Of a stretch of DNA of 64,000 bases, positions 32,413 to 49,356 are shown in pieces. The notes below the pieces were generated by a model. It worked only from the letters and a program-made list of their open reading frames with translations, did not search any database and was not told where the DNA came from. The position numbers and the translations under genes are program-made. Every line of letters starts with the position of its first letter. Position 1 is the stretch's first letter. Where the stretch lies: assembly GCF_004346195.1 (NCBI RefSeq), contig NZ_SMAK01000007.1, positions 186,001 to 250,000 of the forward strand, given 5' to 3'. The stretch is from Tepidamorphus gemmatus. GTDB taxonomy: Bacteria > Pseudomonadota > Alphaproteobacteria > Rhizobiales > Tepidamorphaceae.

Positions 32413-33168
32413 TCAGATCTCGAACAGCGCTCCGACCGGCGGCCAGTCGACCGCCGGATGGGTAGCTGCGACGGACAGGAACGCCTCGAGGAAGTCCCGG
32501 CAGCCCTGGTCGTGGACCAGGTGATGGGTAAGCAGGCCGATCGGCGCCGGGTCACCGGCGAGCCGGCGGTCGATCTCCTCCTGAAGCACCTTCAGCATCT
32601 TCGCCTGTCCGGCGAAGACGCGTCCGCGCTTCCAGTCGACGATGTCCAGATGGGTGTTCAGACAATGCGGATCGCCCGCATGCATCCGGGCAAAGGTGGT
32701 GAGGCCAGGTAGCCCGGCCTCCGCGCGGCGCCTCGCCACCACGTCGCAAACACGGTTCCAGGGCGGCGTCAGCACCGGCAGGAACCGCCCGCCGAACAGC
32801 CCGGCAAGTCGGTGGCGACCGGCGACGAGCTCCGCCAGCACGATATCGGCCGGGCGGTCGGCGCCGAGTTCGGCCGCCTTCGCGCCGGCCGGCGCGTGAT
32901 TGCGGTGGGCAAAGCCGTGCTGCAGCACGACGACACGGCGGGGCTCGCCGGCGAGGCGGTCGGCGAGAGCGGCCCCCGCCGGTTCCGGGATCACCGCCAG
33001 CGCCAGGGGCACGCCGTGGCGGGCGGCAGCGGCGAGCAGATCGTCGAGCGCGGCGGACGGCGCCACGGCATCGTCATCGCGCCACCAGAACGCGATCCTG
33101 CTTCCGCGTCGCGCAACGCCGTCGAGAAGATCGCGCAGCGTCCGCGCGAGGTCGTCCGCCGAGCTCAT
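32413..33168 (-). CDS. Polysaccharide-deacetylase-like protein in the glycosyltransferase operon
   Basis: A 251-residue protein of the NodB-like (carbohydrate esterase 4) superfamily. It has the metal-site-like DDD in FWWRDDDAV, a later VVLQHGFAHRNHAP (His pair) and PPWNRV, resembling the polysaccharide deacetylase family often encoded with glycosyltransferases. The full set of CE4 catalytic residues is not certain, so it may bind rather than deacetylate glycans. Its start overlaps the upstream glycosyltransferase stop (ATGA at 33165-33168), making it the last gene of a five-gene minus-strand operon. Confidence 0.78.
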   Translation of the reverse strand: MSSADDLARTLRDLLDGVARRGSRIAFWWRDDDAVAPSAALDDLLAAAARHGVPLALAVIPEPAGAALADRLAGEPRRVVVLQHGFAHRNHAPAGAKAAELGADRPADIVLAELVAGRHRLAGLFGGRFLPVLTPPWNRVCDVVARRRAEAGLPGLTTFARMHAGDPHCLNTHLDIVDWKRGRVFAGQAKMLKVLQEEIDRRLAGDPAPIGLLTHHLVHDQGCRDFLEAFLSVAATHPAVDWPPVGALFEI

Positions 33169-34325
33169 TCGACGCCCGCACGGATGCGTTGCAGCGTCTC
33201 GACGAGCAGGCTCGCCGAGGCGGCGGCACCGTTGCGGTCGAGCGGCAGGAATGACTGCGGTAACGCCATCGCCCTGTCCACCGCCGCCGCCAGGGTCTGC
33301 GGCGTCAGGGCCGCTTCCGGCAGCACGGCGCACAGGCCGCGTGCGGCGAGTGCTTCGGCCCGCTGGGTCTGCTCCGTCTCGTCACCGCGCGCGAACGGCA
33401 CGAACAGCGCGCGGCAGCCGGCCGCCAGCACATCGACCGCCGTGTTGTATCCGCACTGGCTGATCGACAGGCGCGCGCGCTTCAGCAATCCGGGGAAATC
33501 CCGGCGCGCCCGCTCGACGACAATGCCCTCGCATGCCCGGTCGCGCAGGCCAAGCAGTACGAGGTCGTCGAGATCGGTGCCGACCAGCAGCCGCCAGCGT
33601 GCGGTATCGCAGGTAGTGCACATGTGCCGTGCGGCGATCGCCGTCTCCAGCAACCGCACGCCGACCGCGCCGCCGCCGCAGGAGACGATGACCTCGTCGG
33701 CGCCGTCGCCGGGCGGCGGGTCGGGCGTATCGGCGCCGGTGTCGATGTAGCCGGTGTAGCGGATCAGATCGGCGATCATGACGGCCGGCGGGAAGCTGTC
33801 CTCGAAGCGGATGAACGAGGGATCGCCGTGCACCAGAACCAGGTCGCAATGGTCCCTGGCACGTTCGGCCATGCGCGCCTCCTTCACCGGATCGCGCTTG
33901 CGCACCAGGATGTCGCGGACAGAGGCGGCCACCAGGGGGCGGGGCAACAGCAGGCGGCTGGCCTGCATCAGGGGTTCCATCTCGAAGCCGAAAGCGCCGC
34001 GTCCGAACGGCCAGGTCTCGGTCACCAGGATGTCCGGCGCGATCGTGTCGAACAGGCCGAGCAGACGCTCGCGGCGGCGTGCCCTCCAGGCCGCGTCGAT
34101 CGGCCGGCCGGCCTCGTCGACGATCCCGGAGAAGGTCTCGTCGGCGGCACGGGCGGCCGGCAGCTCGATCAGTTCGGCGCCGCCGAGATCGACGGTCGGT
34201 GGCATGCGGTTGCCCGACACGACGGTGGTCTCGACCCCCAGCGCGGCGAGCGCGCGGCCGAGCGCGGCGGCGCGCACGGCGTGGCCGGTGCCGAGCAGGT
34301 GCTGGACGTGGATCAGCGCCTTCAT
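33165..34325 (-). CDS. Glycosyltransferase, MurG/GT28-like fold
   Basis: A 386-residue GT-B enzyme. It begins KALIHVQHLLGTGHAVRAAALGRALAALG, the N-terminal donor/acceptor groove typical of UDP-sugar transferases, and contains VIVSCGGGAVG followed by a GT28-like C-terminal acceptor region SISQCGYNTAVDVLAAGCRALFVPFARGDETEQTQRAEAL. It would transfer a sugar from a nucleotide donor at the cytoplasmic face. The gene overlaps both neighbours by 4 bp. The sugar and acceptor are unknown. Confidence 0.87.
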   Translation of the reverse strand: MKALIHVQHLLGTGHAVRAAALGRALAALGVETTVVSGNRMPPTVDLGGAELIELPAARAADETFSGIVDEAGRPIDAAWRARRRERLLGLFDTIAPDILVTETWPFGRGAFGFEMEPLMQASRLLLPRPLVAASVRDILVRKRDPVKEARMAERARDHCDLVLVHGDPSFIRFEDSFPPAVMIADLIRYTGYIDTGADTPDPPPGDGADEVIVSCGGGAVGVRLLETAIAARHMCTTCDTARWRLLVGTDLDDLVLLGLRDRACEGIVVERARRDFPGLLKRARLSISQCGYNTAVDVLAAGCRALFVPFARGDETEQTQRAEALAARGLCAVLPEAALTPQTLAAAVDRAMALPQSFLPLDRNGAAASASLLVETLQRIRAGVE

Positions 34326-35440
34326 GGGACTGTCTCCGCCTTGCGGCCACGATGAACCGAGGCCGCCGCGTCGATCAATGCCGCGAGTGCCCGCCTGCCC
34401 GCCGCGAGGTCATGCCCGGATGCGACATGCGCCACGGCCGCCGCGCCATGGCGGCGGCGCAGGTCTGGATCGTCGAGATAGCGGGCGAGCGCGCCGGCGA
34501 AGGCGTCGGTATCCCCCTCGGGGACAAGCAACCCGGTGCGTCCGTCCAGCACGATGTCGGGGACGCCGCCCGACGCACCGGCGACGACCGGCAGACCCGC
34601 CGCCTGAGCTTCCAGGAGAGCGACGCCGAAGGCTTCGTTCACCGCCGGCCAGGCCAGCACGTCGCCCTCGCCATAGACCGATGCGATCGCGTCCGGTTCG
34701 ACGACGCCGCGCCAGTCCACCCGCGCCGCCGGGAACAGGCCGAGGATTTCCTCCCGGCACGGACCGTCGCCGGCGACGAGCAGACGCCAGGCGCGGCCGG
34801 CAAGCTTGCCGAGCGCAGCAGCGAGCAGCCGATAGGAGCGTTCCTTGTCGCCGGCCCGCATCATGGCGACCACCACTAGCACCGGGACCGCTGCCGTGCG
34901 TGGCCGGGCAGCAGCGGCCGCGAAGCGCGCGGCGTCGATGAACGGGGCGAGGCGATGCAGGCGTCCCGATGGCAGGAAGCCGGCGAGACCCTCGGCATCC
35001 TCGGCATGCAGGGCCGCAACCACGTCGGCAGCTGCGAGCGCCCGGTCGGCGGCGGCGAAGCCTGCCGCCCAGGGGCCTGCGGCCTGCTTGGCGGCCCGAC
35101 AGCCCTCGATCACCAGATAGGGGATGCCAAGCGCGCGGGCGATCACCGGTCCGATCAGATCGGGGGCCTTGTGGTAGAGATGATAGGTCAGCCAGAGATC
35201 CGGCGCCGGCCCGTTGCGCCAGCGCTCCATCAGCCTGCTGGTCTCGGCCGCAGCCGCTGCACGCACCTCCTCGAAGGCCTGCGGATCGGGGCGGGGGAGC
35301 CATGTTCTCAGCCGCGATGCGATCTCGACCGCGTGGCCCTCTGCGGTCAGTGCCTTGAGGATCAGCCGCGCCGTCTCGCGGTCGCCGGAAATCACCGGAT
35401 CGTCTGGCGGCTTCATCGGGGCGTGGAAGGCGATGCGCAT
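34322..35440 (-). CDS. Glycosyltransferase family 4
   Basis: A 372-residue GT-B retaining transferase. N-terminal RIAFHAPMKPPDDPVISGDRETARLIL is followed by PVLVVVAMMRAGDKERSYRLLAAAL, LLVAGDGP, and the GT4 nucleotide-sugar site NEAFGVALLEAQAAGLPVVAGASGGVPDIV with GLLVPEGD. It lies 9 bp after the preceding GT4 gene and overlaps the next by ATGA. It likely adds one sugar of the same glycan built by the other transferases of this operon. Confidence 0.9.
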   Translation of the reverse strand: MRIAFHAPMKPPDDPVISGDRETARLILKALTAEGHAVEIASRLRTWLPRPDPQAFEEVRAAAAAETSRLMERWRNGPAPDLWLTYHLYHKAPDLIGPVIARALGIPYLVIEGCRAAKQAAGPWAAGFAAADRALAAADVVAALHAEDAEGLAGFLPSGRLHRLAPFIDAARFAAAAARPRTAAVPVLVVVAMMRAGDKERSYRLLAAALGKLAGRAWRLLVAGDGPCREEILGLFPAARVDWRGVVEPDAIASVYGEGDVLAWPAVNEAFGVALLEAQAAGLPVVAGASGGVPDIVLDGRTGLLVPEGDTDAFAGALARYLDDPDLRRRHGAAAVAHVASGHDLAAGRRALAALIDAAASVHRGRKAETVP

Positions 35441-35449
35441 GCCAGGATC

Positions 35450-36685
35450 TCAGGCCGCCTTGCGACGGAGCGACTCCCGCAGCATCTGCGCGATGCGGTC
35501 GAGACCGGGCGCGGCGGCGAAGTGCTCGAGGGTCCGCGCACGGCCGGCGGCGGCGAGGCGCTGCCGGGCGGCCGGATTGCGCGCAAGGGCGATGATCGCA
35601 CTCGCGAGCGCAGTCGGGTCGCGCGGTGGCACCAGCAGGCCGGTGCGGCCGTCCTCGATCAGCTCCGGAATGGCGGAAACCGGCGTCGCGATCGCGGCAA
35701 CGCCGAGAATCTGCGCCTCCATCAGCACGTTCGGAAGGCCGTCGCGGTCGCCGGACTTCGCGATCCGGCTCGGCAGCACGAACAGGTCGGCGGCGCGAAA
35801 GGCCTCGATCACCGCGTCATGGGCGAGCGCACCACGGAAGCAGACGCGGTCAGCGATGCCGAGACGCTCGGCCTGGTCGCGCAGCCTGCCGATGAGCGCG
35901 CCACCGCCGATATGGGTGAGCCGCCAGTCGACCGCGTCCCCGACGCGTGCCAGGGCGCGCAGAAGGTCGTCGAAGCCCTTCTTCTCGACCGCCCGCCCGA
36001 CTGCGAGAAGTCGCACCGGCCGGCCGGGCGAGCCGTCATTGTCGCCGGGGATGGCCGGTGCCGGGAAACGGGTGAAGTCGAGCCCGTGGTATACGAGCCC
36101 GATGCTGTCGGGCCGGGCGGCGAGGCCGGCGAGATAGGCGCGGTTCGCCGCCGTACAGGTGACCCCCCAGCGTGCGTCGGCGAGCTTGCGTTCGAGTTCC
36201 CAGACCGGTGTCGTCCAGATGTCCTTGGCATGGGCCGAGAACGACCAGCCGAGGCCGGTCAGCGCGGCAGCGTAGCGGGCAACCGAGGCCGGCGTGTGCA
36301 GGTAGTGGACGTGCAGCCACCCCACATCGGCGGGCAGTTCGCGCGCTAGTACCTGCGCCTGCCCCCAGCGGCGCCAGCGGTTGACCGTTCGGTCGAGCTC
36401 GAGATCGGCGCGGAACGCGGCGGCGGCGGCGGCATGGCCCGGCAGGCTCTCGCTGTGGCGTCGGCCGGCGCGAACCCTGGCAGGCTCATCCTTCAGATAT
36501 TCTGGCAGGTACAGCACCTCGGCGCGTATGGCGCGATGCAGGTCATGGACGGCCGGATCCGTCGGCCTGCGCAGCGATACGATCAGGATGTCTAGTCCAC
36601 GAGCCTCCAGCCCCAGGATCTCCTGGGCAATGAAGGTCTCGGACAGCCGCGGATAGCCTTTGACGAGAATCGCCACGCGAGCCAT
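35450..36685 (-). CDS. Glycosyltransferase family 4 (colanic-acid/WcaL-like)
   Basis: A 411-residue transferase starting VAILVKGYPRLSETFIAQEILGLEARGLDI, a pattern seen in WcaL/AmsK-like GT4 enzymes for exopolysaccharides. HVHYLHTPASVARYAA, SAHAKDIW, LLAVGRAVEKKGFDDLLRAL, GGGALIGRL and the donor site DGLPNVLMEAQILGVAAIATPVSAIPELI with TGLLVPPRD follow in order. The gene sits 11 bp downstream of the GT28-like gene at 36697. Context suggests assembly of an exported polysaccharide or glycolipid. Confidence 0.9.
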   Translation of the reverse strand: MARVAILVKGYPRLSETFIAQEILGLEARGLDILIVSLRRPTDPAVHDLHRAIRAEVLYLPEYLKDEPARVRAGRRHSESLPGHAAAAAAFRADLELDRTVNRWRRWGQAQVLARELPADVGWLHVHYLHTPASVARYAAALTGLGWSFSAHAKDIWTTPVWELERKLADARWGVTCTAANRAYLAGLAARPDSIGLVYHGLDFTRFPAPAIPGDNDGSPGRPVRLLAVGRAVEKKGFDDLLRALARVGDAVDWRLTHIGGGALIGRLRDQAERLGIADRVCFRGALAHDAVIEAFRAADLFVLPSRIAKSGDRDGLPNVLMEAQILGVAAIATPVSAIPELIEDGRTGLLVPPRDPTALASAIIALARNPAARQRLAAAGRARTLEHFAAAPGLDRIAQMLRESLRRKAA

Positions 36686-36696
36686 CGGCGCGGCTC

Positions 36697-37914
36697 TCAG
36701 GACACACCGAGCTGGATCGACCGCCTGGCCCCGGCCGTGCGCCCGAGGATCGTCGTCACGCGGTCGTTGATCACCTCGAGCCCGTCGAGCAGGCGCGAAA
36801 TGCCGCGCGCCGAAGGCGGCGACTGCTGCGGCAGCCGCGCCAGCGCCTCGACCATCAGATCGACATCGGGATAATGGTCGATGGGCAGGATGCGGAGCAG
36901 GCCCGCCTCCGCGGCCTTGGTCGCACGGATCATCTGCTCCTGGCGGGGCACCACGCGCGGCACAAGCAGCGCCGGCTTGTCGAAGGACAGGATCTCGCAG
37001 AAGGTATTGTAGCCGCCCATGCCGACCACCGCCGTCGCTGCCTCGATCAGAGGCTCCATGTTGGCGGTGAACCGCTTGACCTCGAGGTCGCGCACCTGTT
37101 CGGCCCGTTCGACGAAATTCGCCTGTGCCAGCGGATCCATGAACGGCCCGAGCACGATCAGTGCGGGAAACAGCGGCCGGGTGCGGGCTTCGTAGGCGCG
37201 GATCACCCAGTCGACAAGTTCCACCCCGTCGCCGCCACCTCCGGGTGTGACCAGCAGGAACGGGTCCTCACCGAACGGCAGCGTATCTGGGGTGTGCGAG
37301 GTGCGCGGCCGCGGACTGCGCAGGTAACCGGTGAAGATGGTCTTGTCGTAGACGGACGGGTCGACGCCGACCCCTTCCAGGGGATCGAACACGCCCCTGA
37401 GCCCGAACACCCAGATATCGTCGTAGAGCTCGGCCAGCGCCGGATGGGCCCGCTTGCGCTCCCATTCCTCGCGCAGCACGTCCGGGTCGTCCATGACGTC
37501 GCGCAGGCCCAGCACCAGGTGGACGCCACGGCGCTTGAGCTGTTCGAGCGTGGCGCGCACCTCGCCGCGCAGTCCGAGCGGCTCCTTGTCGACGATGAAG
37601 ATGTCCGGTTCGAAGATCTCGGCGGTGTGCTCGATGATCGAGGCGCGGATGGCGAGCGTCTGCTCGATGTCGATCGGCAGACTGAGCGAGGTGTAGGCGC
37701 CGTTGCGGAGTTTGGTGACGCCCGGCACCCGCACGAAATCGACGCGCGAGCGAAACTCGAACGAACCGATGATCGGCGAGCCCGACAGGATGAGGACGGA
37801 CAGGCCGGGCGAGGTGTCGACCAGCGAATGCGCGATCGCCCGGCAACGGCGCAGATGGCCGAGGCCGAAGGAGTCGTGGCTGTAGATCAGGATCTTCGGC
37901 TTCGGGCTGATCAT
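36697..37914 (-). CDS. Glycosyltransferase, GT28-like, first gene of the operon
   Basis: A 405-residue GT-B protein beginning KPKILIYSHDSFGLGHLRRCRAIAHSLVD and containing LLVTPGGGGDGVELVDW and a C-terminal GMGGYNTFCEILSFDKPALLVPRVVPRQEQMIRA acceptor region, the same plan as the protein at 33165. Similar proteins are annotated as glycosyltransferase or as spore-coat/MurG-like. The ATG at 37914 is used; a TTG at 37929 is possible and neither has a clear ribosome-binding site. It is divergent from the methyltransferase gene at 38092 with 177 bp between. Confidence 0.85.
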   Translation of the reverse strand: MISPKPKILIYSHDSFGLGHLRRCRAIAHSLVDTSPGLSVLILSGSPIIGSFEFRSRVDFVRVPGVTKLRNGAYTSLSLPIDIEQTLAIRASIIEHTAEIFEPDIFIVDKEPLGLRGEVRATLEQLKRRGVHLVLGLRDVMDDPDVLREEWERKRAHPALAELYDDIWVFGLRGVFDPLEGVGVDPSVYDKTIFTGYLRSPRPRTSHTPDTLPFGEDPFLLVTPGGGGDGVELVDWVIRAYEARTRPLFPALIVLGPFMDPLAQANFVERAEQVRDLEVKRFTANMEPLIEAATAVVGMGGYNTFCEILSFDKPALLVPRVVPRQEQMIRATKAAEAGLLRILPIDHYPDVDLMVEALARLPQQSPPSARGISRLLDGLEVINDRVTTILGRTAGARRSIQLGVS

Positions 37915-38091
37915 GCGGATGACCGGCAACGGGGGGGACGGCGGGAGCTGACCGTCTTATCTGACTGGACGCGCCCGACCCTACGCTGCCAGAGGGCTTG
38001 CGGCAATCGACTTGCGCGGTCCGAGCGGCCGGCTTGTGGCGGCGGGCGCCTTTGCCTAAGAACGCACGGGACAACTCGGCTGGGGAACCGG

Positions 38092-38580
38092 ATGAGCCGC
38101 CTCGACAGCATGATCAACCGGCTGGTCGCCCAGCGCGACATCCTCAACCATGTCGCAGGTCTGATCGCGGCGGTCCCGGGCCCGGTGCTGGAGCTCGGCC
38201 TCGGCAACGGACGCACCTACAGCCACCTGCGGGAAATCCTGCCGGACCGGGAGATCTTCGTGTTCGAGCGCCGCATCACCGCCGCGCCGAGTTCGATTCC
38301 CGACGCCGATCACGTCATCCTCGGCGAAATTCGCGACACGCTTCCGTTTTGCCGCCCGCGGGTGGGCGGTGCAGCGGCGCTGATTCACGCCGACCTGTCG
38401 AACGGCGATCCGACTGACGACCTGGCGCGGCGGGCCTGGCTGTCGCCGATGGTGGCGGAGCTGACTGCCCCCGGCGGCATCGTGGCGTGCGGCCACGAGC
38501 TCGATCTGCCGAGCTTCACGCCCCTGGCGCTGCCCGCCGGCATCCGGCCGGGCCGCTACTTCCTCTACTGCCGACGATGA
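38092..38580 (+). CDS. Small class I SAM-dependent methyltransferase-like protein
   Basis: A 162-residue protein with the SAM-binding motif VLELGLGNGRTYSHLRE and an acidic loop FVFERR, resembling the short Methyltransf_17 family. The later GGAAALIHADLSNGDP and GGIVACGHELDLPS keep the fold in a reduced form. The acceptor is unknown. The gene opens the plus-strand group that includes the ABC-like protein 133 bp downstream, and it is divergent from the glycosyltransferase operon, so it may methylate a glycan or a component of that complex. Confidence 0.82.
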   Translation: MSRLDSMINRLVAQRDILNHVAGLIAAVPGPVLELGLGNGRTYSHLREILPDREIFVFERRITAAPSSIPDADHVILGEIRDTLPFCRPRVGGAAALIHADLSNGDPTDDLARRAWLSPMVAELTAPGGIVACGHELDLPSFTPLALPAGIRPGRYFLYCRR

Positions 38581-38713
38581 CGCCGACCGGTCGCCGCCGG
38601 TTGCCCCCCGCAAGACCGTTCACGGCGTCCGGCGAAGCGGATATGGTCAGCCGCTGGGGCCGGCGCGGCGCCGGACGAGACCGTCGGCAACCGGCGCGAC
38701 GCGGGGGTCATCA

Positions 38714-41326
38714 GTGGAGCCATCGCTCTTCCGGTTCATCTGGAAGTACAGCAAGCGCCAGCAGATCATCATCCTGCTGGTGACGGTGCTGTCGTTCCCG
38801 ATCCTCTACTACTCCCTCGAACTGCCGAAGCTGATCGTCAACCAGGCGCTGCAGGGGACCGACTGGCCGCAGCCATTGCCGTTCATCGGCCTCGAGTTGC
38901 AGCAGGTCCCCTACCTGCTGGTGCTGTGCTTCGCCTTCCTCGCGCTGGTGATCATCAACAACGGCATCAAGTTCTGGCTCAACACCGCCAAGAACCTGCT
39001 CGGCGAGCGGATGCTGCGGCGGCTGCGCTACGACCTGTATCTGCGCGTCCTGCGCTTCAGGCTGCCGCGCTTCCGGCAGGTCAGCCAGGGCGAGATCATC
39101 CCGATGATCACCTCGGAGGTCGAGCCGCTCGGCAACTATATCGGCGACGCGATCGCGCTGCCGGCGTTCCAGGGCGGCACGCTGTGCGTCTATCTGTACT
39201 TCATCTTCGCCCAGGACGTGCTGCTGGGTGCCGCGGCGATCGCGCTCTATCCCGTGCAGATGTGGATCATTCCCAAGCTGCAGGCGAAGGTCAACAAGCT
39301 CGCCCGCGAGCGCGTCATCAATGTCCGTCGCATGGCCGATCGGATCGGCGAGACGATTTCGGGAATCCGCGAGATTCATGCCAATGACGCGGCGATGTGG
39401 CATCTTGCCGATCTCTCGGAGCGGCTCTATACCAACTTCGACATCCGCTACCGCGGCTTCCAGCTGCGCTTCCTGATCAAGTTTCTGAACAACTTCATCA
39501 ACCAGCTGACACCGTTCTTCTTCTATTCGATCGGCGGCTACCTGGTCATCAAGGGCGAGCTCAGCTTCGGCGCGCTGGTGGCGGTGCTGGCCGCCTACAA
39601 GGATCTCGCAGGCCCCTGGAAGGAACTGCTCGACTTCTATCAGGCTCGCGCCGACGTCGAGATCAAGTACCAGACCGTGGTCGAGAACTTCGATGTTCCC
39701 GACGTCAAGCCGGTCGAGCTCGTTGTCGGCGACGCAACGCCCGGCGACAGGCTGTCGGGCGACATCGAGCTGAAGGGCGTGAGCTACGCAGCGGGCGGCC
39801 CGCCGCTGACCGACGTCGCCTTCTCCATACCGAAGGGCACGCTCGCCGCCGTTGTCGGCGACGACACGGATGGTCGCAGCGAACTCCTCGAGCTGATGGC
39901 GGGGCTCGCGGTGCCCGCCGCCGGCCATGTACGGATCGGCGGCCGCGATCTCGCCACGCTGCCCGAGGCAGTGCTCGGCCGCTCGATCGGCTATGTCGGG
40001 CCGAACCCCTATGTGTTCACCGAGACGATCCGCGGCAACCTCACCTACGGGCTGCGCCACCGCCCGATTCTGCCGGAGGGCTGGCCGACGACGCCACTGG
40101 ATGCGCGCAAGAAGATCGAGGCCGAGAACACCGGCAACACCCCGATGCCGATCGGGGTGGCGTGGGAGGATCTGGCCGAGGCAGGGCTCAGTTCGCCGGC
40201 CGAGATCGACGACCGCTGCCTGCAGCTGATGGCGATGGTCGGGCTCGCCGACGACATCTTTCGTCTCGGTCTCAGCGCCCGTATCGATCCCTCGGCGCCC
40301 GACGCTCCGGTCGCGGAGCTGATCGCCGCCCGCAAGCGCGCCACCGAGCGGATCGCCGCCGATCCGCAGGCTGCCGATCTCGTCGAGTTGTGGGACGCAG
40401 GCCGCCTCAACAACAGCGCCACGCTCGCCGAAAACGTGCTGTTCGCGCTTCCGTCCGATCCGTCGATCAGGATGGGCCAGTTGCCCCGCGACCCCCTGGT
40501 GGTGAAGTTCCTGGAGGAGTCGGGGCTGCTCGACGAATTCCTGGCAATGGGCATCGAGATAGCCCGAACCATGGTCGAGCTGTTTGCCCAACTCAGCGGC
40601 GAGGGCTCGCTGCTGGCCGAATACAGCTTCATCACCCCTGACGAGCTGCCGGCCTACGACCGGCTGCTCAAGCGCATCGACAAGCAGGGCCTGACCAGGA
40701 TCCCGAAGAGCGAACGCGCCGACCTCATCGGACTGGCCTTCGAGCTGGTACCGGCCCGGCACCGCCTCGACATCCTCGACGAGAGCCGCATCCGCCGCAT
40801 CATCGAGGCGCGGCCGCGATTCCGGAAGCTGATCGGCGACGAGGGCAATGGCAGGTTCGTTCCGTTCGATCCGGAACTGCTGATCGCACCATTGTCGGTC
40901 GAGGACAATGTCCTGTTCGGCAAGTCGCGCGTCGACCGGCGCGGCAGCCGCGAGCGCGTTGACCGGATCATCCGCGGCGTGATCGAGGAAATGGGCCTGC
41001 AGCATCGAATCCAGCGCGCCGGTCTCGATTTCAACGTCGGCGTCGCCGGCTCGCGCCTGTCGCCAGGCCAGCGCCAGCGCATCGCACTGGTCAGGGCGCT
41101 GATGAAGCGGCCGGCGATCGCGATTCTGGACGGCGTCGGCGCCCTGTCGCAGGATCCTGGCATGTTGTCGGCAGTCCGGGCCGAACTCGCCGACAGCACG
41201 CTGGTCGTGGGACAGGAAACGATCGAGGCGGCGCGGGAGTTCGACAGGGTGATCGTGCTTCGTTCGGGCCGGGTCGCCATGGTCGGCACCTTCGACGAGG
41301 TGTCCGCGGCCGGCCTCGGGACCTGA
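38714..41326 (+). CDS. ABC exporter-like protein with degenerate, expanded nucleotide-binding domain
   Basis: An 870-residue protein. Residues 1-310 form an ABC type I exporter membrane domain with five or six helices. The nucleotide-binding part starts near 350, but key residues are altered: the Walker A region is GDDTDGRSE (382-390, Lys replaced by R388), the Q-loop Gln is absent (YVGPNPYVF, 427-435), Walker B is AILDG (Glu replaced by G807) and the H-loop His is Q834. The signature survives as LSPGQRQR (782-789). About 275 extra residues (450-725) split the domain and contain repeats of the helical subdomain. ATP hydrolysis is therefore unlikely, and it may act as a membrane scaffold or receptor. 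The cyclic-nucleotide-binding gene follows after 28 bp. Confidence 0.88.
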   Translation: MEPSLFRFIWKYSKRQQIIILLVTVLSFPILYYSLELPKLIVNQALQGTDWPQPLPFIGLELQQVPYLLVLCFAFLALVIINNGIKFWLNTAKNLLGERMLRRLRYDLYLRVLRFRLPRFRQVSQGEIIPMITSEVEPLGNYIGDAIALPAFQGGTLCVYLYFIFAQDVLLGAAAIALYPVQMWIIPKLQAKVNKLARERVINVRRMADRIGETISGIREIHANDAAMWHLADLSERLYTNFDIRYRGFQLRFLIKFLNNFINQLTPFFFYSIGGYLVIKGELSFGALVAVLAAYKDLAGPWKELLDFYQARADVEIKYQTVVENFDVPDVKPVELVVGDATPGDRLSGDIELKGVSYAAGGPPLTDVAFSIPKGTLAAVVGDDTDGRSELLELMAGLAVPAAGHVRIGGRDLATLPEAVLGRSIGYVGPNPYVFTETIRGNLTYGLRHRPILPEGWPTTPLDARKKIEAENTGNTPMPIGVAWEDLAEAGLSSPAEIDDRCLQLMAMVGLADDIFRLGLSARIDPSAPDAPVAELIAARKRATERIAADPQAADLVELWDAGRLNNSATLAENVLFALPSDPSIRMGQLPRDPLVVKFLEESGLLDEFLAMGIEIARTMVELFAQLSGEGSLLAEYSFITPDELPAYDRLLKRIDKQGLTRIPKSERADLIGLAFELVPARHRLDILDESRIRRIIEARPRFRKLIGDEGNGRFVPFDPELLIAPLSVEDNVLFGKSRVDRRGSRERVDRIIRGVIEEMGLQHRIQRAGLDFNVGVAGSRLSPGQRQRIALVRALMKRPAIAILDGVGALSQDPGMLSAVRAELADSTLVVGQETIEAAREFDRVIVLRSGRVAMVGTFDEVSAAGLGT

Positions 41327-41354
41327 GGGCAAGCCGGAGAACGGGACGGACGAG

Positions 41355-41825
41355 ATGAGCATCAACTCGGAAGTCGAATCGCTGCGCAGCATCCCGATGT
41401 TCAAGGGCATCGAACCGGCGAAGCTGAGGCTCCTTGCCTTCATCAGCGAGCGGATCACGTTCCGGCCGGGCGAGGTGCTGTGCAAGCAGGGCGAGCCCGG
41501 CGACTCGGCCTACATCATCCTGTCCGGCATGGCGGACGTGCTGGTCGACACCGGCGGCGGCCATCTGCGCAAGGTCGCCGAGATCAGGCAGAACGACGTC
41601 GTCGGCGAGATCGCCATCCTGTGTGACACGCCGCGGACAGCGACCGTCACGGCCGCCAGCGACCTCGTCGCCCTGAACATTTCCAAGGACAACTTCTTCA
41701 AGCTGCTCAAGGAATTTCCGGAGGTGTCGCTGGAGGTGATGCGCGTTCTCGCGCGCCGGCTGGAACGCACGACACGCGACCTCGCCGATGTGCGCGGCAA
41801 GCTCGCCGACATCGGAGCGGCCTGA
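41355..41825 (+). CDS. Stand-alone cyclic-nucleotide-binding protein
   Basis: A 156-residue protein made almost entirely of one CNB (cAMP/cGMP-binding) domain. FRPGEVLCKQGEPGDSAYIILSG forms the first part of the beta-roll, and the phosphate-binding cassette GEIAILCDTPRTATV keeps the Glu (E85) and Arg (R94) that contact the cyclic nucleotide. C-terminal helices (LEVMRVLARRLERTT) follow, with no DNA-binding domain. It is therefore a small signal receiver, probably acting on the ABC-like protein encoded 28 bp upstream. Its stop overlaps the MBL hydrolase start (TGATG). Confidence 0.92.
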   Translation: MSINSEVESLRSIPMFKGIEPAKLRLLAFISERITFRPGEVLCKQGEPGDSAYIILSGMADVLVDTGGGHLRKVAEIRQNDVVGEIAILCDTPRTATVTAASDLVALNISKDNFFKLLKEFPEVSLEVMRVLARRLERTTRDLADVRGKLADIGAA

Positions 41826-42658
41826 TGAGCGGTATCGGACCGGCGATGACGCTGCGCATCTGGGGCGCCCGCGGCTCGACGCCATCGGCGGGACCGGATA
41901 CCGAGCGCTACGGCGGCGAGACGACATCGCTCGAGGTCGTCATCGGCGGCCGGTCCGTGCTCATCGACTGCGGGTCCGGCGCCCGGGCGCTGGCGCGCCG
42001 GCTGACCGAGCAGGGTGTGAACGAAATCGACATCCTGTTCAGCCACTTCCACCTCGATCACATCTGCGGTCTGCCGTTCTTCGCGCCCGCCTACAATCCC
42101 GCGACCACGCTGCGGCTGTGGTCCGGCCATCTGGCACCAGAGATGGATCCGCGCGCGGCAATCTGCCGCATCATGTCGCCACCGATCTTTCCGGTCGCAT
42201 TCGATTGCCTGGCCGCGTGCGAGTGCCTGCGGTTCGTACCGCCCGACCCGGTGAGACTTGCCGGCGACGTGATTGTCGAGACGCTCGCACTCAACCACCC
42301 CAACGGCGCGACCGGCTTCCGCTTCCGCGCCGGCGGCCGCACGCTCGTCACCGTCACCGATCACGAACACGGCGATCCTGCGGTCGATGCCGCAGTGGAG
42401 GCGTTCGTGCAGGGCGCCGACGTCATGCTCTATGATGGAATGTTCGAGGACGCCGAATATGGCAACTTCGTCGGATGGGGCCATTCGACCTGGCAGAAGG
42501 GGCTCGAGCTTGCCAACCGGGCCGAGGTGCGGATCCCGGTCATTGTCCATCATCATCCCGACCGCACGGACCTCGAACTGGACCGCATCGCCGAGCTCGC
42601 CCGGGTCATGCATCCGGGCGCCATCATCGGACGTCAGGGCCTCGAGCTGACGTTCTGA
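41825..42658 (+). CDS. Metallo-beta-lactamase-fold hydrolase (possible phosphodiesterase)
   Basis: A 277-residue MBL-fold enzyme. The N-terminal IWGARGSTPSAGP and IDCGSGAR strands and the metal motif HFHLDH (H74, H76, D78, H79) are followed by LNHPNGATGFRFR, TDHEHGD and IVHHHPDRTD, a layout shared with PhnP- and TaR3-like phosphodiesterases. The gene overlaps the CNB gene by one base and converges on the cyclase gene, overlapping it by 25 bp. The neighbourhood suggests it might hydrolyse the cyclic nucleotide, but the substrate is not shown by sequence. Confidence 0.85.
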   Translation: MSGIGPAMTLRIWGARGSTPSAGPDTERYGGETTSLEVVIGGRSVLIDCGSGARALARRLTEQGVNEIDILFSHFHLDHICGLPFFAPAYNPATTLRLWSGHLAPEMDPRAAICRIMSPPIFPVAFDCLAACECLRFVPPDPVRLAGDVIVETLALNHPNGATGFRFRAGGRTLVTVTDHEHGDPAVDAAVEAFVQGADVMLYDGMFEDAEYGNFVGWGHSTWQKGLELANRAEVRIPVIVHHHPDRTDLELDRIAELARVMHPGAIIGRQGLELTF

Positions 42659-43860
42659 AGCATCGGCCCGGCCATCAGCGGCACGGTCGCCGCCGGCCGG
42701 AACACCCGTTGCGGTCGCCGCACCCCGCGCAGCGTGTAGATGCCCATCTCCTCGAACACCGCCGGCGCGTATTCCACGAAGTCCTCGCTGGCCAGCACCG
42801 GAACGTCCAGATCGCGGGTCAGCCCGTTGATCCGGCTGCCGATGTTCACCGCCTCGCCGACCACGGTGAAGTCGAGCCGTTCGCGGCCGCCGACATTGCC
42901 GTAGAACACGGCGCCGACATGCAGCGAGATCCCGACCGACAGCCGCGATGCGCAGGCAGCGCAGTCCCGGTCGTGGATGTCCTGGAGGTTGAGGACGGCG
43001 GCCTGCGCGGCGTCCAGGGCATTGGCCGCGGCCTGCCGCGCCTCCTGTTCGTTGGCGTAGGGGAAGATCGCCAGCACCGCGTCGCCGATGAACTTCAGCA
43101 CTTCCCCGCCCCGCTCCTCGACGGCGTCGGTCATCGTCTCGAAGTAGAAGTCGAGAACGTCGACCAGCTCGCGCGGCGTGAATTCGCCGGACAGGTCGGT
43201 AAAGCCGCGCAGGTCGGAGAACCAGATCACCGCCTCGATCTGCTCACCGTCGCCGCGCCGGATGTCCCCGGCAAGCACCCGCGGCGCCGTCGACCGGCCG
43301 AGATAGGTGCCGAGCAATGTCAGCGCCGAGCGGCGCTGGCTGTGCACCTCGAAGACGATCGCGACCGGATGCAGGATCGATTCGAACAGCGCGATGTCGT
43401 CGGCCGAGAAGCCCCCCGCGCGGCGCGTCGCCATCGTCAGCGACTTGAAGCTGCCGTCGGAATAGCGCAGCGGAAAGGCGACATAGTCCGTCGCGCCATC
43501 GGCTCTCAGATCGGCCAGGATGCCGAACTCCCCCGGTTCGGGTGTCGGGCTCACCGCGACACGGACCGTCCGGCCCGACGTGTAGACGTGATACAGTGGA
43601 CTGTTGGTGAATATCCGGTCGTTCACCAGCGACTGCGGGAACTGCCGCCAGGACACGCCCTGCCCCTCGATCCACAGCGCCGTTTCGGCGCGGATCAGCG
43701 GATGCAGGATCGGGATGCCCGTGGTCAGCCTGTAGACCGGCACGCCGTCGGCGACGAGCCGCTCGCCGAGCCGGCCGATGAAGCTGCCAAGGTCGGGGCT
43801 GGAATGTCCTTCCTCGAGTATCCAGTCGCGCAGGTCGCGCACGCGGGTCCCCGTCGTCAT
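42634..43860 (-). CDS. Class III adenylate/guanylate cyclase
   Basis: A 408-residue soluble cyclase. The N-terminal half (to about 190) resembles a GAF-like sensory domain (YVAFPLRYSDGSFKSLTMATRR, LFESILHPVAIVFEVHSQRR). The catalytic domain starts near 205: metal Asp D216 in WFSDLRGFT, K256 and second metal Asp D260 in VLKFIGDAVLAIF, and N339 and R343 in DFTVVGEAVNIGSRI. All residues needed for catalysis are present, and the Lys favours ATP. It probably makes cAMP. The start at 43860 follows AAGGAC; it diverges from the ATP-grasp gene with 89 bp between. Confidence 0.9.
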   Translation of the reverse strand: MTTGTRVRDLRDWILEEGHSSPDLGSFIGRLGERLVADGVPVYRLTTGIPILHPLIRAETALWIEGQGVSWRQFPQSLVNDRIFTNSPLYHVYTSGRTVRVAVSPTPEPGEFGILADLRADGATDYVAFPLRYSDGSFKSLTMATRRAGGFSADDIALFESILHPVAIVFEVHSQRRSALTLLGTYLGRSTAPRVLAGDIRRGDGEQIEAVIWFSDLRGFTDLSGEFTPRELVDVLDFYFETMTDAVEERGGEVLKFIGDAVLAIFPYANEQEARQAAANALDAAQAAVLNLQDIHDRDCAACASRLSVGISLHVGAVFYGNVGGRERLDFTVVGEAVNIGSRINGLTRDLDVPVLASEDFVEYAPAVFEEMGIYTLRGVRRPQRVFRPAATVPLMAGPMLQNVSSRP

Positions 43861-43949
43861 CTCAATCGTCCTTCGCAACCGGATCGTTTGACCGGGATGG
43901 GCCGATCTCTTAGGCAACTGCCGACCGCAGACAATCGCCGACGTCCCCG

Positions 43950-44897
43950 ATGCCCAATCTGATTCTCGTCCATTGGCCCGAACGGCAGTCGCTCGACGAC
44001 TTCCGCGAGATCGCGCGGCTGATCCGGGCGCGTGCGCCGGAGATAGGTGTGATGATCGCCAAGGGCAAGGAACGCGAGCTCGGCATCGTGCTCAGGGCAG
44101 CCCTGCGTCCGACGATGGTCGTCTCGATGATGCCCCGCAAGCGCTTCCGGGTGCTGCATGGCCGCGTCTACGAGGGGCACGATCTGCCCAAGAGCGAGCA
44201 ATATCGCCGCTATCGCGCCGCCGGCATCCCGGTACCGGACTGGGAGGTGATCGTCCCCGATACCAGCCTCGACCCAAGCCATTGGGGCGACTATGTCATC
44301 GTCAAGCCGGACCTCGCCCGCAAGGCCGCGGGGATTGTCATCAAGCGGACCCGGCGGGTGCGCTACCAGCCGCCGGAGAGCTTCGAGGCGGATCATCCCG
44401 GTCGTCATTCGCCGATGCTCGCGCAGAAATTCGTCTACACCGGCCGTTGGGCGAATCATTTCCGCGTGACGACGCTGTTCGGACGGACCCTGTTCGCGGT
44501 GCACTGCGAGGCCGACCGCAGCTTCCGCCCGCTTGAATCGCGCGATGCCTTCAAGGGAGCCAACGGGGTCGGCGGCGCTCCGGTCGTCTCCAACAAGAAG
44601 AGTTCGCGCTATACGCTCGCCGACGATCCCGAGGTGATCGCCCTCGGCGAGCGTGCGCACGCGGCGTTTCCCGAGATCCCGCTTCTCGGGCACGACATCG
44701 TGCGCGATGCCGACACGGGGGAACTGTTCGTCCTGGAAAGCAACACCCGCGGCGATGTCTGGTTGCTGTCGTCGGGAACCGGCCGCAGCCTGCAGCGCAC
44801 CAACGGCTTCGACCTCTATGCGCAGTTCGGCGCGCTCGAGATCGCCGCCGAGGCGCTCATCGACAAGGTGCGGGCCGAATTCGGCACGTCTGCGTAG
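43950..44897 (+). CDS. ATP-grasp protein (RimK-like)
   Basis: A 315-residue ATP-grasp enzyme. The central part shows KPDLARKAAGIVIKRTRRVR as the nucleotide lid, LAQKFVYTGRWANHFRVTTLFGRTLFAVHCEADRSF, and the metal-site region GHDIVRDADTGELFVLESNTRGD. The family ligates an amine to a carboxylate using ATP, as in RimK or glutathione synthase. It is divergent from the cyclase gene. Unlike ribosomal RimK it is not near translation genes. The product could modify a protein or glycan linked with the cyclic-nucleotide locus, but that is only positional. Confidence 0.82.
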   Translation: MPNLILVHWPERQSLDDFREIARLIRARAPEIGVMIAKGKERELGIVLRAALRPTMVVSMMPRKRFRVLHGRVYEGHDLPKSEQYRRYRAAGIPVPDWEVIVPDTSLDPSHWGDYVIVKPDLARKAAGIVIKRTRRVRYQPPESFEADHPGRHSPMLAQKFVYTGRWANHFRVTTLFGRTLFAVHCEADRSFRPLESRDAFKGANGVGGAPVVSNKKSSRYTLADDPEVIALGERAHAAFPEIPLLGHDIVRDADTGELFVLESNTRGDVWLLSSGTGRSLQRTNGFDLYAQFGALEIAAEALIDKVRAEFGTSA

Positions 44898-45907: not shown

Positions 45908-45990
45908 TAGCCACACGAATTACGCGTGCCGTCTGGAAAGGGTACCCCTTGCCTGCACGTCACGCGGTTGCAGCGAGCCGGGAGGTCGCG

Positions 45991-46680
45991 ATGAATACGG
46001 CAGTACAGAGGTCGCAGCTGAACGACTCGGTCGGCCTCGGCGACTGTCTGGCCCCCGAGTTCCGGGCGCTGGGCCTGGAGCCGGTGGTGCGGGGCTCCAC
46101 CGTCGCGCAGTATGCCCAGCACGCCACCATCTTCTTCGAGGGCGACCCGGCCGACACGATCTGCCAGGTCATCGACGGGGCCGTGATGCTCTACAAGCTG
46201 CTTCCCGATGGCCGCCGTCAGGTGGTCGAACTGCTCGGCCCCGGCGACATCTTCGGGTTCGCAAGGGGCGCCTGCCGCGATGCGTCGGCCGAGACCCTGA
46301 CCGCCGCCCGCATCCGCACTTACGACCGGCGGGGTGCGGAAAGATCATGCGGCTTCCAGCGGCTGCTTGCCCGTCAGATGCTGGCCCAGCTCGAGGCGAT
46401 GCACGAGCACGCCGTGCTGCTCGGCCGCAAGTCGGCGATGGAGCGCGTCGCGAGCTTCCTCCTCCAGCTTGCCAGCGCGCGGCGGGCGACGGACGAGCGT
46501 CCTGTCGTGCGCCTGCCGATGACTCGTCAGGAGATCGCCGACTATCTCGGCCTGACCATAGAGACGGTGTCCCGCTCGTTCTCCGAACTCAAGCGCCGCG
46601 GGCTGATCGCGCTCGAGAAGCAGGATCGGGTCCGCATCGTCGACGTCGAGGCCATGAACGATATCGCCGGAGCCGCCTGA
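45991..46680 (+). CDS. fixK: Crp/Fnr-family regulator, FixK-type
   Basis: A 229-residue regulator: N-terminal beta-roll (HATIFFEGDPADTICQVIDGAVMLYKLLPDGRRQVVELLGPGDIFGF), a dimerisation helix and a winged helix with recognition region TRQEIADYLGLTIETVSRSFSELKRRGLI. The E-TVSR pattern is the FNR/FixK type that binds TTGAT-N4-ATCAA, and such boxes precede ccoN, ccoG and fixT. The N-terminal cysteine cluster of oxygen-sensing Fnr is lacking, so FixLJ rather than direct oxygen sensing probably controls it. The ATG at 45991 has GGGAGG. A strong terminator follows. Confidence 0.88.
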   Translation: MNTAVQRSQLNDSVGLGDCLAPEFRALGLEPVVRGSTVAQYAQHATIFFEGDPADTICQVIDGAVMLYKLLPDGRRQVVELLGPGDIFGFARGACRDASAETLTAARIRTYDRRGAERSCGFQRLLARQMLAQLEAMHEHAVLLGRKSAMERVASFLLQLASARRATDERPVVRLPMTRQEIADYLGLTIETVSRSFSELKRRGLIALEKQDRVRIVDVEAMNDIAGAA

Positions 46681-46780: not shown

Positions 46781-48130
46781 CTACACGGCGACCGAGTGAC
46801 GGGCGGCGCCCTGGTTCAGGTAGGCGTCGAAGGCCGAGGCGACCAGTCGGGCGAAGGCGCGCATCGGGGCAGGAATGTGAAGCCGCAGTCCCTCGATCGT
46901 GACGAGTCCGTCCCGCCGCAACGGATCGAGCGCCGCCAAGGACCCGGCCAGCCCGGCCGGGTCGAGGCCGTGCGCGCGGAAGATGGCATCGGCATCCACC
47001 GCGAATTCGCACATGATCCGTTCGATGATCTCGGCCCGGGCGAGGTCCTCCCGGCAAAGATGCTTGCCTCGGACAACCGGCAGGCGGCCGCCCTCGATGG
47101 CGCGTCGCCAGCCGCCGATATCGGGAGCATTCTGCACATAGGTGCGCGGCAGGCGTCCGATCGCGGAGGCGCCGAGCCCGATCAGGGCGTCGGCGGGGTC
47201 GGTGGTATAGCCCTGGAAGTTGCGGCGCAGGCTCCCGGTCGCTGCTGCGATCGCCAGCGGATCGTCGCGCCGGGCGAAGTGGTCGATGCCGATGCGGATA
47301 TAGCCGGCCGCCTCGAGCTGCTGCGCCGCGGCCTCGGCCTGCTCCATCCGCGCGATCGCGCCCGGCAGGGCGGCGGCGTCGATCAGCCGCTGGTGCGTCT
47401 TCATCCAGGGCACATGCGCATAGCCGAACAGTGCGATGCGGCCCGGCGACAGGCTCGCGGCGAGATCGGCCGTGCGCGCGACATCGGCCACCGTCTGGTG
47501 CGGCAGGCCGTACATGAGGTCGAGATTGATGGCGCCGATACCGACGCTGCGCAAGCGCGCGACGACATTGGCAACGGTTGCGAAGGGCTGGATGCGGCCG
47601 ATCGCGCGCTGCACGGTCTCGTTGAAGTCCTGAACGCCGAGACTTGCACGATTGACCCCGGCCGCCGCCAGGCTCGCCACCAGCTCCTCGCCGACGGTGC
47701 GCGGATCGAGCTCGATGGCGTGCTCTGCCTTCGGATCGACCGCAAGACGCTCGCGCAGGAGCCGTACCGTCGCAGCAAAGTCGGCGGCGGCGAGCAGGCT
47801 CGGCGTGCCGCCGCCCCAATGGATGTGCACGACCGGCAGACGTTCCGGCAGCCGGCTCGCTACCAGCGCGATCTCGCGGCGGAGCAGGGCTGCATAGGCG
47901 GCGACCGGTTCCGGTCGGCGTGCCGCCTTGGTGTGGCAGCCGCAGTAGTGGCAGATCTCGCGGCAGAACGGCACGTGGAGATAGACCGACAGTCGCGTGT
48001 CGCCAGGCAATGCCGCGAGCAGCGCCCCATAATCCGCGCTTGCGATTGCATCGCGGAAATGCGGCGCCGTCGGATAGGAGGTGTAGCGGGGAACGTTGCG
48101 GGTCGCGTGGGCGATGAGGCCGGGTTTCAT
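46781..48130 (-). CDS. hemN: Oxygen-independent coproporphyrinogen III oxidase
   Basis: A 449-residue radical-SAM enzyme that decarboxylates coproporphyrinogen III to protoporphyrinogen IX without oxygen. The N-terminal PRYTSYPTAPHF and cluster motif CREICHYCGC (CxxxCxxC) are present, with IHWGGGTPSLL, IELDPRTV, and GIDHFARRDDPLAI later, all in the HemN order. It supplies heme under low oxygen, matching the cbb3 oxidase genes. The ATG at 48130 has GAGGA. An FNR-type box lies 35 bp upstream, and it is convergent with fixK. Confidence 0.95.
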   Translation of the reverse strand: MKPGLIAHATRNVPRYTSYPTAPHFRDAIASADYGALLAALPGDTRLSVYLHVPFCREICHYCGCHTKAARRPEPVAAYAALLRREIALVASRLPERLPVVHIHWGGGTPSLLAAADFAATVRLLRERLAVDPKAEHAIELDPRTVGEELVASLAAAGVNRASLGVQDFNETVQRAIGRIQPFATVANVVARLRSVGIGAINLDLMYGLPHQTVADVARTADLAASLSPGRIALFGYAHVPWMKTHQRLIDAAALPGAIARMEQAEAAAQQLEAAGYIRIGIDHFARRDDPLAIAAATGSLRRNFQGYTTDPADALIGLGASAIGRLPRTYVQNAPDIGGWRRAIEGGRLPVVRGKHLCREDLARAEIIERIMCEFAVDADAIFRAHGLDPAGLAGSLAALDPLRRDGLVTIEGLRLHIPAPMRAFARLVASAFDAYLNQGAARHSVAV

Positions 48131-48164
48131 GCCGGCATCCTCGTCGAGCCATGCGCTGGCGTCC

Positions 48165-48178
48165 TTGCGGTTGATCAA
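48165..48178 (-). promoter_or_regulatory. FNR/FixK-type box upstream of hemN (imperfect)
   Basis: TTGCG-GTTG-ATCAA matches the TTGAT-N4-ATCAA consensus at eight of ten positions, with both TTG and CAA ends. It sits 35 bp before the hemN ATG on the minus strand. A class II promoter would then start very near the ATG, so the exact role is uncertain. Confidence 0.5.
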
Positions 48179-48246
48179 CCCCGGCGCTGGTCGCGCCGGC
48201 GCCGGACCTCTAAGCTCGAGCCGCATCGCGGAACACGGGAGCGGGA

Positions 48247-49356
48247 ATGGTTGGCCACGACGTCGGACCGGGAATCGTCTCGCCGGCTGCGCGGCTCGCC
48301 ACGACCCTGGCGCTGGCCATCGCCGGGAGCCTGGTGTTCTGGGGCGCCGGATTTCCGGTTCCCTGGATCTCCGGGGCAATGGTAGTGGTCGCGGCCGCCG
48401 CCCTCGCCGGCGTTCCCCTGCATCTGCCGCTCTGGCTGCGGGAACTCACCTTCTTCGTCCTCGGGCTCAGCATCGGCGCGGCGCTGACGCCTCAGACGGT
48501 CACGCAGATCGGCCGCTGGCCAGCGTCGCTGCTGCTGATGCTGCTGACACTGCCGGTCGTCTCGCTCGGTGCCGCGCTGGTGCTGATCCGCTGGCGCGGC
48601 TGGCAGCGCGACGACGCCATGCTGGCCAGCGTGCCAGGCGCGCTGTCGCTGATCCTTGCCCTGGCAGATGCGACCGATGCCGACGTTCCCAGGATCGCGC
48701 TTGTCCAGGCACTGCGCGTGGCGATCCTGGTCATCGTCGTCCCACCGCTCATCGTGCTGGCCTCCGACGTGCCGCCATCGGCGCAGACGGCGCCGTCCGC
48801 CCCTGGCGCGCTGCCGGACCTTCCGGACGTCGCCATCCTTGCCGGTGCCGGCCTGCTCGGAGTCGTCGCGATCCGCCTGATCAGGCTGCCAGCGCCCTGG
48901 CTGCTCGGCGCACTTGCCGCCAGCGCCGCGCTGCATGTGGCGGGACTTGTGCAGGCCCCCGTCCCGGACGAGGCCCTGCTGCCGGCCTTCGTCGTCCTCG
49001 GCGCTGCCGTCGGTGTGCGGTTCGCCGGGCTCGGCTGGGCCGCGCTGCGCAGCGGAATCGTCGACGGGCTGCTCGTGGTCGCGGCGGGCTTCGCGCTGTC
49101 GGCCGCGGCCGCGTTGCTGGCCGCGCGGCTGCTCGGCTTTTCCTTCGGCCTGACCATCCTCGCCTTCGCCCCAGGCGCCTTCGAGGTGATGACCGTGATG
49201 GCCTTCGCGCTCGGCCTCGATGCCGCCTATGTCGGCGCGCACCACACCGTGCGCTTCGCCGCGCTGGCATTGCTGTCGCCGCTGCTCTTCGGTCGCCGAC
49301 ACACCCCGCTGCGACGCCGCGGCGGCGGCGATGGCGGCGCTAGCCGAGAGCGCTGA
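48247..49356 (+). CDS. AbrB-family membrane protein
   Basis: A 369-residue integral membrane protein with about ten helices in two similar halves (WISGAMVVVAAAALAGVPL, FVLGLSIGAALTPQ in the first half; LLGALAASAALHVAGL, VVLGAAVGVRFAGLGW in the second), the internal duplication of AbrB/ammonia-monooxygenase-like proteins. FAPGAFEVMTVMAFALGLDAAYVGAHHTVRF is the family's C-terminal signature. It is a putative transporter or regulator; the substrate is unknown. It diverges from hemN, and its end overlaps the aldolase gene by 17 bp. Confidence 0.88.
   Translation: MVGHDVGPGIVSPAARLATTLALAIAGSLVFWGAGFPVPWISGAMVVVAAAALAGVPLHLPLWLRELTFFVLGLSIGAALTPQTVTQIGRWPASLLLMLLTLPVVSLGAALVLIRWRGWQRDDAMLASVPGALSLILALADATDADVPRIALVQALRVAILVIVVPPLIVLASDVPPSAQTAPSAPGALPDLPDVAILAGAGLLGVVAIRLIRLPAPWLLGALAASAALHVAGLVQAPVPDEALLPAFVVLGAAVGVRFAGLGWAALRSGIVDGLLVVAAGFALSAAAALLAARLLGFSFGLTILAFAPGAFEVMTVMAFALGLDAAYVGAHHTVRFAALALLSPLLFGRRHTPLRRRGGGDGGASRER

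Follow-up and report, generated by a model that had tools for sequence, protein, structure and literature searches.

Does the region at positions 38092-44897 of the analysed DNA encode a membrane system switched by a cyclic nucleotide, and what would such a system control? The question is raised by a preliminary description of the window (the whole stretch of 64,000 nucleotides that was analysed), which singled out an ABC exporter-like protein, a stand-alone CNB protein, an MBL-fold hydrolase and a class III cyclase as a candidate cyclic-nucleotide system. All gene positions given there agree with ours, and the features of the locus are as follows.

32413..33168, minus strand: conserved operon protein of uncertain start, possibly resembling polysaccharide deacetylases (by eye)
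33165..34325, minus strand: GT33 glycosyltransferase (Glyco_tran_28_C; PF04101, E = 3e-10), conserved neighbour
34322..35440, minus strand: GT34 glycosyltransferase (group 1; PF13692, E = 1.4e-26), conserved neighbour
35450..36685, minus strand: GT35 glycosyltransferase (group 1; PF13692, E = 5.7e-33), conserved neighbour
36697..37929, minus strand: GT36 glycosyltransferase (Glyco_tran_28_C; PF04101), first gene of the facing operon
38092..38580, plus strand: Methyltransf_17 SAM methyltransferase (PF12692, E = 1.5e-57)
38714..41326, plus strand: ABC-exporter-fold pseudo-ATPase, predicted, 870 aa, GTG start (PF00664 and split PF00005)
39857..39883, plus strand: degenerate Walker A, GDDTDGRSE, aa 382-390
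39956..41113, plus strand: expanded NBD with three Q-loop/helical subdomains, aa 415-530, 545-640 and 700-800 (hhalign)
41355..41825, plus strand: stand-alone CNB protein, 156 aa, without a DNA-binding domain (PF00027, E = 2.7e-22)
41604..41642, plus strand: phosphate-binding cassette of the CNB protein, GEIAILCDTPRTA (conservation in orthologues)
41825..42658, plus strand: MBL-fold hydrolase with an SHFHLDH motif, optional member (PF12706, E = 1.8e-18)
42634..43917, minus strand: class III nucleotide cyclase with a weak GAF-like N-terminal region (PF00211, E = 3.6e-13)
43950..44897, plus strand: ATP-grasp-like protein (by eye), lineage-local

The Methyltransf_17, ABC-like, CNB and MBL genes follow one another on the plus strand; the cyclase gene is convergent with the MBL gene, their ends overlapping by 25 bp, and the ATP-grasp-like gene diverges from the cyclase. 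The one-base overlap described earlier between the CNB and MBL genes is present, with the CNB stop codon and the MBL open reading frame sharing A41825. The Methyltransf_17 gene, whose start (38092) opened the region described before, had been left unnamed; many relatives have it at another place, immediately following the CNB gene. The facing operon (32413-37929, minus strand) comprises four glycosyltransferases and one conserved protein without a family match. Just past the locus, a Crp/Fnr-type regulator gene adjoins a HemN-like gene (45949-46680 and 46781-48379). Clusters of open reading frames resembling antisense or non-coding frames (e.g. 1, 6, 10 and 17) were left out of the neighbourhood survey.

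The product of 38714-41326 matches PF00664 (E = 5.1e-18) and, in split form, PF00005, and its AlphaFold model (pLDDT 82.9) retrieves ABC exporters as the best Foldseek matches, including TmrAB, PCAT1 and Sav1866. The transmembrane domain and the fold are those of a type IV ABC exporter, whereas the intact Walker A, Walker B/catalytic glutamate, Q-loop and H-loop expected of such an exporter are missing. The alteration of catalytic residues claimed earlier extends to Walker A (GDDTDGRSE), Walker B (ILDG) and the H-loop, with R388 in place of the Walker A lysine, G807 in place of the catalytic glutamate, P430, and no H-loop histidine. The decay is family-wide: none of the 91 homologues keeps the full set of six canonical NBD residues, at most three remain in 82, 14 have none, and which residues are lost varies by lineage. 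By comparison, the Walker A is canonical in all three ordinary exporters from related genomes used as controls, as are the signature, Walker B and H-loop in two of them. This pattern suggests that the ATP motor of the window protein has decayed and that the protein would lack ATPase activity.

Part of the ATP site is nevertheless retained by many relatives (Walker A lysine in 45/91, catalytic glutamate in 47/91, H-loop histidine in 21/91), so that ATP binding or slow hydrolysis is possible in some of them; in the homologue from locus L066, five of the six checked residues are present. Such proteins would suit a real, albeit slow or asymmetric, ATP-driven exporter in which the altered residues permit turnover and the CNB protein only tunes the activity. 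We consider this quite unlikely, given the arginine, the glycine and the missing histidine of the window protein, the members without any of the six residues and the lack of a second intact ABC half as a conserved neighbour, the importer ATPase described below excepted.

The NBD is also enlarged, by an insert of approximately 270 aa built from additional Q-loop/helical subdomain copies, the last of which precedes the signature motif. When sub-profiles of the family were compared using hhalign, copies 2 and 3 matched with a probability of 98% (E = 1.5e-12), copies 1 and 3 with E = 9e-7 and copies 1 and 2 with E = 4e-5. Given that the three segments are related, the insert is not foreign but arose by copying of the segment that follows the Q-loop.

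The CNB protein (41355-41825) carries an intact GE-x8-RTA cassette, conforming to the G-E ... R-(T/S)-A pattern of PF00027 proteins, as had been recognized from the window, and the cassette is nearly invariant in 83 orthologues (G in 82, E in 81, R in 83, T or S in 78 and A in 83). The protein is a candidate cyclic-nucleotide sensor, with cAMP or cGMP as putative ligand. Its pairing with the ABC protein is conserved: an orthologue lies directly downstream of the ABC gene on the same strand at 73 of the 96 loci (a count that includes three loci whose sequence had been retrieved twice), and at five more the CNB domain is fused to the C terminus of the ABC protein. Further loci, recovered in plasmid and class searches, often encode the fused form, including those on plasmids of Azospirillum sp. 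B510 and Ruegeria sp. B32, and at least two changes between the fused and separate states are required on the tree of 116 members. The strongest indication from sequence that the two proteins function together is their fusion in more than one lineage. In the folded model of one fusion (L107), obtained with no inter-domain error map, the CNB domain follows a low-confidence linker and no docking is visible.

The cyclase was described earlier as having a full active site, and the alignment bears this out: the metal-binding D235 and D279, the base-selecting pair K275/D349 and the transition-state pair N358/R362 characteristic of class III adenylate cyclases are all present. The relatives of the window cyclase among PDB sequences are adenylate cyclases, and K275/D349 predict ATP as its substrate. 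Among the 17 order-level carriers, nine have a class III cyclase gene no more than about 4 kb downstream of the ABC gene, against 0.2 expected, an enrichment of approximately 45-fold (P about 6e-14) relative to a density of approximately 2.7 class III cyclase domains per Mb in the order-survey carriers. The arrangement of the locus is far beyond chance. The cyclases found beside the ABC loci differ in the N-terminal region, so that different proteins have been recruited to re-establish the association. The substrate-selecting residues also vary from locus to locus, so that one fixed messenger is doubtful and the messenger may differ between lineages. One Burkholderiales MAG (L100) has three class III cyclase and two CNB genes around a single ABC gene.

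In most Rhodospirillales-type loci, no cyclase is found near the ABC gene, and at these loci the general cellular pool may provide the signal. Extended to the whole family, this would mean that the CNB-ABC pair reads the general cAMP or cGMP level, with the adjacent cyclase and MBL genes as neighbours of convenience. Many loci without a nearby cyclase or MBL gene are consistent with such a scenario, as is the content of this genome, with six class III cyclase and eight CNB matches in total, but the excess of cyclases close to the ABC gene in the order-level carriers makes it decidedly unlikely. Far less probable still is a Pycsar-like anti-phage system, in which a cyclase would act together with a membrane-bound CNB effector. 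The PADLOC PycC models do match the cyclase (best E = 2e-28) and the PycTIR model matches the CNB protein (E = 2e-19); however, the latter match spans the CNB domain only, with no TIR or other effector domain, and the CNB protein is partnered with a complete exporter fold that is inherited together with glycan genes. Furthermore, Pycsar cyclases are pyrimidine cyclases with residues unlike those of adenylate cyclases, whereas the window cyclase carries the adenylate cyclase set. Assignment to Pycsar is not supported, as the PycC-like cyclase is not accompanied by a CNB domain joined to a TIR or small transmembrane domain.

The two remaining genes of the region are less constant. The conserved co-occurrence expected from the preliminary description holds for the ABC, CNB, cyclase and glycosyltransferase genes, but just 17 of the 93 loci have an orthologue of the MBL hydrolase, and the ATP-grasp-like gene is local. 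The model for MBL-fold cyclic-nucleotide phosphodiesterases, NF041851, scores the window hydrolase at 43 bits against a cut-off of 400, and the protein has no sequence relative in the PDB at E = 0.001. Given its patchy distribution and low score, degradation of a cyclic nucleotide by this enzyme is a guess, and a phosphodiesterase role a possibility. The divergent gene is present at 43950-44897 as reported, but its product matches no family in Pfam or NCBIfam and no PDB sequence, and the ATP-grasp name comes from a likeness seen by eye. The gene is restricted to the two closest relatives (loci L021 and L022/L037) and is probably not part of the core module.

The ABC protein is encoded in about a third of the sampled Alphaproteobacteria (129 of 385 genomes), with homologues in Alpha-, Beta- and Gammaproteobacteria, including on large plasmids of Rhizobium, Sinorhizobium and Azospirillum. 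In Sinorhizobium meliloti 1021, the homologue is split over two frames (L117 11962-14713; pSymB, about 841.7-844.4 kb), whereas in most other listed S. meliloti strains it matches in one piece. A copy on a contig labelled as Anaerolineae (Chloroflexota; L043) is near-identical to that of an alphaproteobacterial genome (G188, L138) and is probably a binning error.

A link to the facing glycosyltransferase operon, initially offered as a possibility, turned out to be the strongest association of all. Across the 385 alphaproteobacterial genomes, the ABC protein is found in 129, GT36 in 126 and both in 123 (phi 0.95), and the SBP of an Opp-type importer follows the ABC protein almost as closely (phi 0.91); these values are inflated by phylogenetic relatedness, for which hemN, a neighbouring gene of similar prevalence, serves as the control (phi 0.34). 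In 34 of the 122 genomes with mapped places, the ABC and GT36 genes do not lie within 12 kb of each other, ten of these on the same contig, with contig breaks possibly hiding linkage in some of the other 24. Co-inheritance therefore reflects more than linkage. Within the operon, the product of 32413-33168 has no match in Pfam or NCBIfam and has a homologue at 40 of 93 loci. A histidine-phosphatase-family gene is found within the glycosyltransferase operon at 34 of 93 loci (L054, L135, L137, L138 and L140-L142 among them) and is absent between GT34 and GT33 of the window operon.

The importer was first noticed in rhizobial loci. In this genome, its genes for an ATPase, an SBP and two permeases fall outside the window (L146, G000:C7:174000-186100), in a region some 40-50 kb upstream of the ABC gene, with the importer itself at a distance of about 43 kb, and the importer operon adjoins genes for a dehydrogenase (best model TviB) and an NAD-dependent epimerase. 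In Rhizobium johnstonii 3841, where the locus is intact (RL_RS29995/RL_RS29990), a nucleotide sugar dehydrogenase is encoded beside the locus cyclase. The TviB-like nucleotide sugar dehydrogenase and the epimerase beside the importer point to a uronic-acid sugar. The R. leguminosarum gene pRL110056 has been reported to be needed for root colonization (PMC11103875). By gene count from repA, with old and new tags unmatched, it may correspond to the nucleotide sugar dehydrogenase at the locus edge, and we leave it out of the argument.

Taken together, these observations are consistent with an ABC-fold membrane protein that is gated by a cyclic nucleotide, is not driven by ATP and acts in a surface-glycan pathway, a reading to which we assign a probability of about 0.45. 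The facing glycosyltransferases would build a glycan at the inner membrane, probably one containing uronic acid, and the ABC-fold protein, probably a homodimer no longer driven by ATP, would act as the membrane gate or assembly platform for this glycan. On the cytosolic side, the CNB subunit would alter the state of the ABC protein upon binding of a cyclic nucleotide; in this genome, the adjacent class III cyclase would be the source of cAMP, with the MBL hydrolase possibly terminating the signal.

The main rival to gating is that the ABC-fold protein moves nothing and instead serves as a scaffold or allosteric regulator that, together with the CNB protein, would recruit the glycosyltransferases or the Opp-type importer or switch their activity. 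The sulfonylurea receptors, which regulate their channel and move nothing, provide a model for such a role, and catalytic decay throughout the family, an NBD enlarged by repeats as an interaction surface might be, and co-inherited partners that are glycosyltransferases and an importer would all fit it. Most of the invariant columns of the family, however, fall in the transmembrane half, as expected if a membrane path has been retained, and we regard the scaffold role as somewhat unlikely. The gating reading, in its most comprehensive form, would be a new kind of membrane gate that gave up ATP hydrolysis, repeated the helical subdomain of its NBD, came to be switched by a CNB protein and controls a surface glycan in approximately one third of the Alphaproteobacteria and in some Beta- and Gammaproteobacteria; in all these particulars at once it is tentative and rather doubtful.

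The gating reading suggests an undescribed way to switch a cell-surface glycan on and off. If it is correct, an ABC protein can give up its role as an ATP motor and become a gate switched by cyclic nucleotides, in a bacterial counterpart of CFTR and SUR, and the Alphaproteobacteria would have a direct, non-transcriptional output for cAMP or cGMP. Several unnamed glycosyltransferases would share a single pathway with an Opp-type importer and a pseudo-transporter, in organisms that include the rhizobia R. johnstonii, R. etli and S. meliloti as well as Azospirillum, with the module on large plasmids. Even without gating, the gene set, with an exporter whose ATPase is apparently dead throughout the family, is widespread and tightly co-inherited.

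Each part of the locus belongs to a known superfamily, and neither the module nor the combination was found described in open-access papers. In the S. meliloti MsbA2 operon (SMb21188-SMb21191, pSymB), an ABC exporter adjoins glycosyltransferases and export of an unknown polysaccharide has been proposed (PMC3687685). We rejected MsbA2 as a homologue, as it belongs to another locus: the ChvI-bound fragment lies at 938 kb (PMC3687685) and the homologue of the present family at 841.7-844.2 kb. With type IV ABC exporters (MsbA, Sav1866, TmrAB), the family shares PF00664 and one transmembrane half plus one NBD per chain, but differs in the family-wide decay of ATPase residues, the threefold Q-loop/helical subdomain and the CNB partner or fusion. 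SUR1/SUR2, CFTR and TAP likewise are ABC proteins with degenerate sites or a non-transport role that are controlled by a second signal. These proteins, however, are eukaryotic, and in them at least one site is still competent or binds ATP, whereas here both sites of the presumed homodimer are degenerate and the sensor would be a CNB domain. The TIGR03896 family ('bacteriocin-type transport-associated protein'), which we take to comprise CNB proteins encoded near an ABC exporter, is matched by the window CNB protein with E = 4.9e-11 and 42.5 bits, well short of the cut-off of 161, and with the NHLM exporter model the ABC protein reaches 134.5 against 853; unlike those systems, the locus here has no peptide-export context. 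Finally, in BcsA with c-di-GMP, a nucleotide second messenger also controls glycan production at the inner membrane, but the class of messenger, the receptor domain and the membrane protein all differ from those of the present locus.
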